This document shows, one piece after another, positions 51,188-58,672 of a DNA stretch of 63,550 bases (position 1 is the stretch's first letter; each line of letters opens with the position of its first letter). This DNA comes from Verrucomicrobiia bacterium. GTDB taxonomy: Bacteria > Verrucomicrobiota > Verrucomicrobiia > Limisphaerales > Pedosphaeraceae. Made by a program: the position numbers and the translations under genes. Under the pieces are notes generated by a model that searched no databases, was not told the origin of the DNA, and saw nothing but the letters and a program-made list of their open reading frames with translations. Location of the stretch: the NCBI GenBank assembly GCA_036268055.1, contig DATAUW010000020.1, forward strand, positions 1 to 63,550, in the 5' to 3' direction.

Positions 51188-54100
51188 ATGAGCAATCCTA
51201 GCGAGCACGAAGAAGCGATTTTCATCTCCACCCTCCAATTGCCCGCCGAGCAGCGCGCGAAGCATTTGGACGAGGTTTGCGCGGGCAATCCCAGGTTGCG
51301 AAAACGCATCGAGGCGCTGGTAAAGGCCCATGAGAAGGCGGGCGAATTTCTGGAGAAACCTGCCTCGACCCTGCCGATAGCGGAGCCGATGCCGTTGCCC
51401 GCGGCGGGACCTCATGCCACGGTGAGAATCTCTCTGTCTTCGACGGAAAAGGCGGGAGACAAAATCGGCCGTTATAAACTTCTGCAGCAAATTGGGGAAG
51501 GCGGATGCGGCGTCGTTTACATGGCGGAACAAGAGGAGCCCGTCCGGAGGCGGGTGGCGTTGAAAGTGATCAAGTTGGGGATGGATACCAAAAATGTCAT
51601 CGCCCGCTTTGAAGCCGAACGGCAAGCGCTGGCATTGATGGATCATCCGAACATCGCAAAGGTGTTGGACGCGGGTGCGACGGAAGCCGGCCGCCCGTTC
51701 TTCGTGATGGAACTGGTGCGCGGGATCAAGATCACGGATTACTGTGACCAGAATCATCTTTCGACCACCGAACGCCTGAATCTTCACATCAAAGTGTGCC
51801 AGGCGATCCAGCATGCGCATCAAAAAGGCATCATTCACCGTGATATCAAGCCCTCGAATATTCTGATCGCTTTGCATGACGGTGTGCCGATTCCCAAGGT
51901 GATAGATTTCGGCATTGCCAAGGCGACGGAGCAAAAGCTGACGGACAAAACGCTTTTTACGATGTTTGAGCAGTTCATCGGGACGCCCGCTTACATGAGT
52001 CCGGAGCAGGCGGAGATGAGCGCGCTGGATATTGATACCCGCAGCGATATTTATTCGCTGGGTGTGCTGCTGTACGAGTTGTTGACGAGCAAGACGCCGT
52101 TTGACGCGAAGGAATTGATGCAGTCGGGGTTGGACGGAATGCGGCGGACGATTCGCGAAAGGGAGCCGTTGCGGCCTTCCACGCGGCTGAACACGATGTT
52201 GCAGGCGGACCTCACTACAGTGGCCAATCATCGGCAAATGGAACCGGCGAAATTGACTTCCCTGATCCGCGGCGATTTGGATTGGATCGTGATGAAGGCG
52301 CTCGAGAAAGATCGCACGCGGCGTTATGAGACGGCCAATGGCCTCGCCGCCGATATTAAGCGCTATCTGCAAAACGAACCGGTGAGTGCATGTCCGCCCA
52401 GCGGAATGTACCGGCTGCAAAAAATGGTTTTTCGGAACAAGGCGGCTTTCGCGGCGGGCGGAAGCGTTTTGCTGGCGCTGCTGGCCGGGCTGGGTTTTTC
52501 GACCTTCATGTTTTTCAAAGAAAAACAGGCGAACAAAGTGGCGTTGACGGAAGCGAAGAAAAGCCAGCAGACCGCGCATTTTTTACAGGACATGTTGCAG
52601 GGCGTGGGCCCGGAAAAAGCGAAGGGTCGCGACACGGAAATGTTGCGGGAGATTTTGGACCAGACGGCGAGACGCATGGGCACCGAACTTTCCTCCCAAC
52701 CCGAAGTGGAAGCGGATTTGTGCCTGACGATCGGGGGGGTTTACCAGGATTTGGGCGAGTATGCCAAAGCGGTGGATATGCAGACCCATGCCGTCACTTT
52801 GGACGAAAAGGTCTATGGCAAGGAAAGTTCAAATACGGCCACGTCGCTGCAAAAATTGGCTGCCACTTTGTGCGACAAGGGGGATTTTCCGAAATCGGTT
52901 CAGGCCTCAAGGGATGCGTTGAGTTTGTGGCAAAAGATTGCGCCGGCGAACGATCCAAGGACGGCACTGGCTTACAACGATCTGGGGTTGACATTGTGGA
53001 CCCGGGGTGAACTGCCCGAAGCGGAGACGCGGATTCGCCAGAGCCTGGAAATCCGCAAAAAACTGCCCGGCGACCACGGCGTTGATTTGGCCGAGTCGTC
53101 CAGCAATCTTGGGTTGGTGCTGCGTGACCGTGGCGATCTCGCTGGCGCTGAAAAGGCGTTCCGCGATGCTTTGCGTTACACGACCGGAACGGATACGGAC
53201 ACGGACATGGTTCGGTGTGTGTACCTGAACAACCTTGCGCTCGTTCTGCAGGACCAGGGCGATCTCACCAATGCGCAATCCACTTTTAACGCGTCGCTCA
53301 ATATCATCACCCGGCTGTTGCCGCCGGATCATCCGCACATCACTCTGGTGCGCGCTCATCTGAATGACGTCATCCGCCGGCGAGGCGCACTCGCTGACGA
53401 TCCTTCTTTATTTCGCGAAGCCTTGTTACTCGACCCGGCCGAGTTGCCCGCGAGCGATGCGCTGTCATCCTCATTGGCGGTTTCCCAACTCACCGCCGAT
53501 GGGCTGGCGTGTTCGCTGGCGAGTCCTTCCTTGTCGCCGCTGCCGATGGACGCGGGATCAACGGCGGGCTCATGGCGTTACACGAGCAAATCACCGGGTG
53601 CGAACTGGGCGGCCTTTACCTTTCCAGATGGAAGATGGGCCACTGCCGCCGAGCTTGTGGCTAATTCGACTTATACAACCCGTTCGCTGCGTGCGGCGCC
53701 CGCGCTGACCAACCTATGGTTGCGAAGGGAATTTGATCTTGCGGAAATTCCCGCGGGAAAATTGGTCTTGCGCGTCAATCGGAATGAGGATGCGCAAGTC
53801 TATTTGAATGGAGTGCTGCTGACTCCAACCGTTGATTGGAGCGACGTGGAGGTGTTGGTTCCCTGTTCAACGGCGGGTCAGGCAGCGCTTAAAAAAGGCC
53901 GAAATGTTCTCGCCTTGCATTGTCAGGATGCCGACGGCGGCACCCGGATCGGAGTAAAACTTTATGTGACCGAGGATGCGACCCTCGGGCGCAATCTCCT
54001 GATTGACGAGTTTGGCGAGAACCTTAGCAGCCAGCCACAACGGGCGGAACTCTATGCCGGGCGTGCGAATGTCCTGGCACGATTAGGGAAATGGAAAGAC

Positions 54101-54760
54101 GCGAGCAGCGACCTGAGCCGGGTGATCGAATTGAAGCCTTCGGCGATTGCCGGATGGTATCAACTTGCTCCTTTACTTCTTGAAGAAGGTTCGGCGGATG
54201 GATACGAGCGGCTCCGCCGAAAAGCGCTGGAACGATTTGTCAATCCAGACGGTCCGATGATCGCGCAACGAGTGGCCATGCTTTCGCTGCTCACCCCTCC
54301 GGACTCTTCACAGACCGAAGAGGTGAGCAAGCTGTCAGACCTCGCGGCGGCGGCGGATTATGTAGATTGGAACCTCACCTGGCGGCAACTCACGAAGGCG
54401 TTGGCGGAATATCGGTCGGGACGATTTAACGGCGCTCTCGAGTGGTGCGACAAGGCACTCGCGACCAGCGCGCAGCAAGACATCCCCGGCTGGAACCATG
54501 AGCGCGAACGAAACCGCATGGCGAGCGCGTACCTGATCGAGGCGATGGCCCAACAGGAACTCAAACAACCCATCGAGGCGCAATCTTCCCTGGCCAAGGC
54601 CGAGAATATCATCAACGGCCAATGTCCCGCGGTGGATAGCGGTGACCTTGGCCGCGAGTGGCAGGATTTTCTGACCGTGCGCATCCTCGCGCGCGAGGCG
54701 CAATCCCTCATTGGCGGCAAAGTCGCCACTGCCGGGCAGGCGGGCGGTGCCAAGCTTTGA
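51188..54760 (+). CDS. Transmembrane Ser/Thr protein kinase with TPR and jelly-roll sensor domains
   Basis: 1190 residues. A short N-terminal helical region ([25 protein letters not shown]) is followed by a Hanks-type kinase (about 94-395): [13 protein letters not shown], Lys126, HRDIKPSN with D219, DFG at 240-242, and [10 protein letters not shown]. One transmembrane helix lies at about 418-443. The outside part has TPR-like repeats (about 500-720: [39 protein letters not shown]). A beta jelly-roll of sugar-binding hydrolase type follows ([35 protein letters not shown]), then more TPR. All catalytic residues are present. It is followed by an ECF sigma gene. Confidence 0.9.
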
Positions 54761-58600: not shown

Positions 58601-58672
58601 GATTATAGCGACAAAAACGTCTATGACCTGCTCGGACGGTTCGTCTATTTTGAAATCTCTAAAAAGTTTTAG
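55634..58672 (+). CDS. TonB-dependent outer-membrane receptor
   Basis: 1012 residues. A signal region is followed by the N-terminal TonB-box-like segment (KLPEVIVTG) and the plug: [35 protein letters not shown] and [32 protein letters not shown]. The C-terminal barrel ends [10 protein letters not shown], with Phe last as usual for barrel proteins. GGGAG eight bases before ATG 55634 decides the start over ATG 55619. The ligand cannot be read; siderophore, vitamin B12 or glycan are possible. It lies after the kinase and sigma genes, with a 225-base spacer. Confidence 0.92.
   Translation: [1012 protein letters not shown]

Follow-up and report, generated by a model that had tools for sequence, protein, structure and literature searches.

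The 63,550-nucleotide stretch of DNA considered here, contig DATAUW010000020.1 of the Verrucomicrobiia assembly GCA_036268055.1 and hereafter called the window, encodes on its forward strand a transmembrane Hanks-type Ser/Thr kinase (51188–54760), an extracytoplasmic function (ECF) sigma factor (54848–55408) and a TonB-dependent receptor (55619–58672), and on its reverse strand a 68-aa zinc-ribbon protein (50808–51014). We think it reasonably probable that these genes form a kinase-activated ECF sigma switch whose local regulon would comprise the kinase–sigma operon, the zinc-ribbon gene and the receptor gene, a copy of one promoter-like element lying before each of the three. A preliminary description of the region had read kinase, sigma factor and receptor as one sensing module, with the receptor as a possible output; the three reading frames are indeed open and lie in the order that it gave, with 87 bp between the kinase stop codon and the sigma ATG and 210 bp between the sigma and receptor genes.

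The genome around the window amounts to 5.1 Mb in 41 contigs, the window being contig C20. Sigma factors scoring over the TIGR02999 cut-off are present in 32 of the 58 relatives searched. There are 119 such places outside the window’s own, from which 100 regions holding 101 sigma open reading frames (ORFs) were fetched. The kinase relatives are 89 ORFs in 79 named loci, mostly from assemblies of Verrucomicrobiota and in part from Phycisphaerae.

Kinase and sigma factor

The kinase (1190 aa), recognised from Pfam, a Protein Data Bank (PDB) match and sequence motifs, consists of an N-terminal extension (residues 1–92), a kinase domain (96–324; Pkinase, E 7.5e-45; HRD at 217 and DFG at 240), a transmembrane segment (about 419–443, the most hydrophobic stretch beginning at residue 419), tetratricopeptide repeats (TPRs; Pfam matches between residues 509 and 712, plus 953–985), a jelly-roll and a C-terminal TPR block. 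Its closest PDB sequence is 9EED, residues 1–364 of PknS from Xanthomonas citri (E 1.4e-51, residues 9–394 aligned); residues 1–90 alone fail to retrieve PknS. The parts of the published accounts covered here give PknS an 83-residue N-terminal segment, a kinase domain, a transmembrane segment and outer TPRs, and describe phosphorylation of the sigma factor EcfK by PknS. Judged from its sequence, the window kinase would hold its catalytic part in the cytoplasm and its TPRs outside the inner membrane, the topology of the EcfP/EcfK-type kinases.

The sigma factor belongs to TIGR02999/PF07638 (NCBIfam TIGR02999, 210.7 bits against a cut-off of 126.15; PF07638, E 2.2e-60). It likely starts at ATG 54848, giving 186 aa, rather than at the listed TTG 54833, which gives 191 aa; a PDB search with it gave nothing below E 0.15. 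In region 2.2, QPTA takes the place of the DAED motif. In EcfP and EcfK the phosphorylated Thr occupies the third position of the DAED-equivalent motif, according to the portions of those reports available, and comparison with them makes T50 of QPTA (codon 54995–54997, forward strand) the predicted phospho-acceptor. The motif reads QPTA in 65 of the 101 relatives, QATA in 30, QPTE and EATA in two each, and QPMA and QASD in one each, with Thr 50 kept in 99. A kinase gene lies on the same strand within 500 bp of the sigma gene in 66 of these 101 cases (sigma-first in 54, kinase-first like the window in 12); none is present in the fetched region for another 12, some regions being cut by contig ends. 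The window’s own genome has one more kinase–sigma pair, which is sigma-first (contig C37).

The preliminary description had reported no anti-sigma gene, and Pfam bears this out, as none of the three proteins or of the products of five neighbouring genes matches an anti-sigma or FecR family; the zinc-ribbon gene had been overlooked. With the PknS match, the region 2.2 Thr and no recognised anti-sigma, phosphorylation of the window sigma factor by the neighbouring kinase, also put forward there, stands as a prediction well supported by homology.

A promoter-like element in the window and in related genomes

The element, of the type TGATnCTTTT-N9-ATTTCGCATT, was first noticed when the upstream regions of kinase-first operons of relatives, of the window kinase gene and of the receptor gene were set side by side. 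With a 29-column matrix built from six relatives, the window excluded, the best site in the window is TGATCCTTTTTGGCTCGTTATTTCGCATT (51130–51158, forward strand; 30.4 bits), 29 nt before the kinase ATG, and the second best is TGATACTTTTGCTCCGGGAATTTCGCATT (55476–55504, forward strand; 30.3 bits), 114 nt before the receptor ATG. The third best is a weaker copy 67 nt before the zinc-ribbon ATG (51082–51110, reverse strand; 20.1 bits, three pattern mismatches). The highest background score with this matrix is 17.6 bits, over 759,822 positions. A scan of the whole genome with the pattern TGATNCTTTTN9ATYTCGCATT at up to three mismatches, made by pattern only and not by matrix, returned six places: the kinase and receptor sites as exact matches, and the zinc-ribbon site and three sites elsewhere at three mismatches. 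The reversed pattern returned none. Since the pattern was derived from the window sites, their exact match by itself proves nothing. The three sites elsewhere score 25.3 bits (contig C27), 13.5 bits and 7.3 bits; that on C27 falls within a reading frame and was discounted as a chance match.

A second matrix, built from 15 non-kinase targets in relatives, again places the zinc-ribbon (25.7 bits), receptor (19.9 bits) and kinase (15.2 bits) sites at the top of the window, the next site scoring 13.1 bits. The receptor and zinc-ribbon sites are alike over 39 bases (79% identity, E 4e-4); the rest of their upstream regions are unlike, so that a recent duplication is not the cause. Bipartite words common to the kinase and receptor upstream regions number seven against 1.6 after shuffling, a signal that is weak alone, as 3% of shuffles reach as high, and the kinase–sigma gap shares no such word with either region. 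The longer word TTTT-N11-TCGCATT occurs once in the window (0.23 expected), before the kinase gene only, and a scan for sigma-70 promoters and terminators yielded nothing exceeding shuffles.

Among relatives, the commonest gapped word in the 30 kinase-first upstream regions (window excluded) is TTTT-N11-TCGC, present in eight of them, against a maximum of five in every one of five shuffles; the upstream regions of 86 sigma-first and 27 lone sigmas do not have it among their top words. A matrix from eight seeds finds matches of at least 14 bits in 13 of the 30 kinase-first regions (eight being the seeds) and in none of the 86 sigma-first or 27 lone-sigma regions. Matches of at least 20 bits occur in all six seed loci, 7/11 other kinase-first loci, 3/58 sigma-first loci and 5/25 loci in which the sigma gene is lone or far from a kinase, and in none of 20 receptor loci or ten other loci of the window’s own genome. 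Twenty column-permuted matrices average at most 0.1 match per class; with the reversed matrix there is a single match in all. On a quick tree of 102 sigma factors, drawn open, 14 of the 16 relatives within the window sigma’s fork have the element in their locus, as against 7 of the 85 outside it (12/14 against 3/81 once seed loci are removed). The element label changes six times on this tree, compared with 20.1 times when labels are shuffled. Support for the fork is modest, at 81.

In relatives, the 51 distinct matches of at least 20 bits lie before a kinase gene (23), before another gene (26) or before none (two). The distance to the kinase start is 24–32 nt in 13 of the 23 kinase cases, a range that includes the 29 nt of the window. 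Twenty of the non-kinase targets were scanned with Pfam: they include a subtilase, a BspA-type leucine-rich repeat protein, an NHL protein, a glycoside hydrolase family 20 (GH20) enzyme, an immunoglobulin-like and FG-GAP protein, a di-haem oxidoreductase, a small outer-membrane barrel, a peptidyl-prolyl isomerase, a nitroreductase and an AraC regulator, eight of the 20 being without a Pfam match. Among the 26 are also an 88-aa frame resembling a kinase N-terminus (locus L125) and a zinc-ribbon gene (L244). By a crude rule, 16 of the 26 targets are exported, as against 47 of 122 generic neighbours (P 0.048), which is a hint only, because the rule misses the window receptor itself. The window receptor fits the resulting pattern of one switch clade and one element with changing neighbours as targets. 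One relative locus has three copies of the element (L278, at 5357, 6503 and 10662), two of which precede paralogous exported proteins starting MKTKNALCGL. As for outputs common to the relatives’ pairs, the Pfam families listed for flanking genes (the best 25 of 114 downstream and 25 of 109 upstream) include none that recurs in more than two of 63 downstream genes or two of 70 upstream genes, the latter being 72 less two that were sigma genes.

The zinc-ribbon gene

The zinc-ribbon gene is divergent from the kinase gene and 174 nt away from it; its product has two CxxC pairs and a TWDT tail, and its Pfam matches are all below cut-off. Zinc-binding anti-sigma (ZAS) proteins carry HxxxCxxC, from which the pattern here differs. 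Ten homologous ORFs were found in ten loci (nine distinct stretches), all beside kinases, in loci that had been chosen around such genes. A search of 58 genomes picked independently of such genes gave 13 nearly complete matches (E up to 1.6e-15, that of the window among them), ten of which have a kinase or sigma gene of the window type no more than 330 bp away. The other three have none so close, one of them being on contig C13 of the window’s own genome; in genome G013 a sigma fragment is all that neighbours the zinc-ribbon gene. Most of the weaker matches are zinc ribbons within longer frames. In the proposed switch, the zinc-ribbon protein is probably a third component.

The copy on C13 (L329, around 200263) is 52% identical to that of the window and lies 6.4 kb from a kinase gene, with no strong element in the 12 kb fetched. 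In four sigma-first loci (L113, L134, L138 and L147), a zinc-ribbon gene is near the kinase gene on the opposite strand, in L138 between sigma and kinase.

The predicted sensor part of the kinase

An insertion lies between two TPR blocks of the kinase (residues about 752–948; 53441–54031, forward strand) and contains a jelly-roll module (about 795–929), delimited by profile matches and a model. In four relatives, the TPR block ending at about residue 751 joins the block starting near 949 after 0 to about 50 residues, the junction being tightest in L242; because these relatives run the two blocks nearly together, some 197 residues are inserted in the window kinase. Eight proteins, five of them from the window’s own genome, end in a module similar to residues about 795–929 (E 9e-15 to 5e-25, in a small set); they have glycoside hydrolase family 2 (GH2), GtaA six-hairpin or glucose/sorbosone dehydrogenase (GSDH) domains. 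The jelly-roll profile also retrieves the rhamnosidase 3W5M (E 1.7e-9), while Pfam on window positions 53471–54040 gives no family at E up to 0.1, Glyco_hydro_2_N being unmatched.

When the whole outer part was folded, the TPR helices were obtained and the jelly-roll came out poorly, with predicted local distance difference test (pLDDT) values under 50 over model residues 303–509; the domain was therefore folded alone. The resulting model (mean pLDDT 66, from three sequences) resembles the N-terminal jelly-rolls of GH2 enzymes (Z 9.4, root-mean-square deviation 3.2, 129 aligned), in a structural comparison in which chance alone often gives a best Z of 7 to 8, and Foldseek with this model of modest confidence returns the same domains (E 2e-4). 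A jelly-roll of the type found in sugar-binding hydrolases, which the preliminary description had placed in the sensor, is supported by the module matches to GH2, GtaA and GSDH proteins, and the modelled fold, of modest quality, may be GH2-like. Judged from fold and module resemblance alone, the outer part of the kinase may sense glycans. Among other kinases (89 kinase ORFs in L080–L199 and 89 in L230–L308, overlapping sets), the module has a single match, a weak one, in G020, contig C31 (E 8.4e-5).

In locus L259 (7873–11998), a kinase gene of the window family and a GH2-like ORF converge, 50 bp apart; the latter carries at its end the jelly-roll module of the window kinase, an arrangement that is a possible source for such an insertion.

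Proposed mechanism and alternative explanations

From the architecture, the motif, the element and its distribution, we infer the following chain from signal to receptor. The outer TPR and jelly-roll part would receive a signal, perhaps a sugar-bearing ligand, and would activate the cytoplasmic kinase, which would phosphorylate the sigma factor, most likely at T50. By analogy with EcfP and EcfK, the phosphate on T50 would restore the negative charge missing from region 2.2 and so permit binding to RNA polymerase. The sigma factor would then transcribe from the three elements, i.e. its own kinase–sigma operon, the divergent zinc-ribbon gene and the receptor gene. The receptor would be an output recruited in the window lineage and not the sensor in a Fec-type relay. 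The receptor itself has 1017 aa, with Plug (E 2.3e-15) and beta-barrel (E 1.2e-28) domains, and may alternatively start at a second ATG at 55634, beginning MKNRK.

Several observations weigh against this mechanism. No TonB ORF lies beside the relative sigmas in the 100 regions around 101 of them, by a detector that recovered all five receptors of the window’s own genome only when seeded with that genome’s own receptors. A profile check with PF07715, which finds 95 places in 31 other sigma-bearing genomes, detects no TonB plug within 37 kb of any of the 119 other sigmas on a shared contig; only two receptors share a contig with any of them, 37.8 and 64.7 kb away (the four other receptors of the window’s own genome included), and G021 and G001, the genomes of the two nearest sigmas, have no Plug match. 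The 79 kinase loci likewise contain no TonB ORF, and the 23 receptor upstream regions in the 20 relative receptor loci lack the element, the best score being 6.9 bits. Within the window, the receptor element is farther from its start codon than the element is before most kinases, TTTT-N11-TCGC is not enriched (11 against 8.55 expected), and the receptor site lacks that word, its spacing being 12. The six seed sites were picked after the window sites had been seen alongside, so the matrix test was not blind. Concerning the phospho-site, a T51A variant of EcfK is still functional and its linker Thr 106 also matters, according to the parts of the work covered, so T50 need not be the sole site; in the linker of the window sigma, no Ser or Thr is well conserved, the position of S114 being Ser or Thr in 28% of relatives. 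Finally, the sections of a review covered here state that the groups linked to serine/threonine protein kinases (STPKs) other than ECF43 keep a DAED-like motif.

As no relative examined keeps the receptor in third place, the three-gene order is not conserved as far as the receptor is concerned, an outcome that the preliminary description had named as one that would refute its reading. Its suggestion of the receptor as an output survives in part, with the shared promoter-like element in its favour and the failure of conserved order against it. The same finding lends itself to a rival account, which we consider rather unlikely: the kinase and sigma factor would be an ordinary STPK–ECF switch, and the receptor merely an unrelated downstream gene with a chance match upstream. 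Receptor matches at E up to 1e-50 occur in at least 53 of 320 genomes of the order (two candidates scored per genome), 20 regions around the best of them contain no sigma or kinase gene, and orthologues exist in genomes without the sigma factor (e.g. G025, with no TIGR02999 match over cut-off). The 210-bp gap also holds a terminator-like hairpin (55448–55462), of a class no commoner here than in shuffles. What speaks against a chance match is its strength: 30 bits within 210 bases, when the background maximum is 17.6 bits, and when the best match outside the window in a genome scanned by pattern alone, at 25.3 bits, falls within a reading frame.

The element could also be the site of another regulator or the promoter of another sigma factor, such that the receptor and the pair are co-regulated and the window sigma plays no part, an explanation that we regard as improbable. 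It draws on the fact that the element is known from sequence alone and on the modest support of the tree fork that the element follows; against it, the spacing of 16 nt between the boxes TGATNC and TCGCAT, the 24–32 nt to the kinase start in 13 of 23 cases and the clustering on the sigma tree all fit a sigma promoter. Surface signalling of the Fec type would make the receptor the sensor, with an anti-sigma relaying its signal to the sigma factor; in its favour, Fec systems have an ECF gene next to one for a TonB receptor. It is nonetheless very improbable here, because there is no FecR-like gene among the five neighbours scanned, because the receptor has no N-terminal signalling domain (its Pfam matches at E up to 1 are Plug, barrel and one weak barrel family) and because the sigma factor is of the TIGR02999 family, kinase-adjacent in relatives.

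Two further genes of the window flank those discussed. One (48047–49756, forward strand) encodes another ECF-type sigma factor, not of TIGR02999, which has regions 2 and 4 and is extended at its C-terminus by more than 350 residues; the other (59220–60650, reverse strand) encodes a putative citrate-type transporter (CitMHS_2) and is convergent with the receptor gene.

Relation to known systems

ECF factors activated by STPKs have already been described, as the preliminary description had noted, and include the pairs PknS–EcfK of Xanthomonas citri and PknT–EcfP of Vibrio parahaemolyticus, of group ECF43 (PMC13147305; PMC8999054; PMC8103513). In the parts of these sources covered here, the likeness to the window extends to a transmembrane kinase with an N-terminal extension and outer TPRs, an adjacent ECF gene and a sigma factor without DAED and with Thr at the phospho-site (a comparison of motifs). 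The window differs in the jelly-roll within its sensor, in having the kinase gene first, in the zinc-ribbon neighbour and in the predicted TonB target, the outputs reported for the known pairs being a type VI secretion system and polymyxin resistance. It also differs from the other STPK-linked groups, for which the review sections covered report a DAED-like motif, in that its sigma factor has none. The same sections list ECF59, ECF61, ECF62 and ECF217 of Planctomycetes as proposed to be regulated through phosphorylation by a neighbouring kinase, and they give no promoter, target or signal for these groups. Our literature survey, which covered few subscription papers, found no promoter element, zinc-ribbon partner or TonB target for such kinase-linked ECF factors.

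In profile match and, tentatively, in modelled fold, the insertion resembles the N-terminal jelly-rolls of GH2 enzymes (beta-glucuronidases and CsxA) and the rhamnosidase 3W5M. It differs in lacking a Pfam match and in its setting, as the module that ends GH2, GtaA-type and GSDH proteins in this order is here part of a kinase. With Fec-type systems the window shares an ECF gene adjoining a TonB receptor gene; it differs in having no FecR gene among the five neighbours scanned and no receptor signalling domain.

Significance

More broadly, and tentatively, since we hold this to be possible rather than probable, the sigma clade may consist of portable switches (kinase, sigma factor and often zinc-ribbon protein) whose private element lies before differing, often exported, neighbours, whose input is retuned by inserted sensor modules shared with glycan-active enzymes and whose zinc-ribbon protein represents a new kind of regulator of kinase–sigma pairs. 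As the candidate element tracks one sigma clade, the targets of such switches would be readable from genomes, and the element could be assayed with a phosphomimetic sigma factor. The jelly-roll insertion would link the input of the switch to a module that otherwise ends glycan-active and other enzymes, and the switch would gain a third component that has so far gone unnamed, should the zinc-ribbon protein prove to be a true partner.

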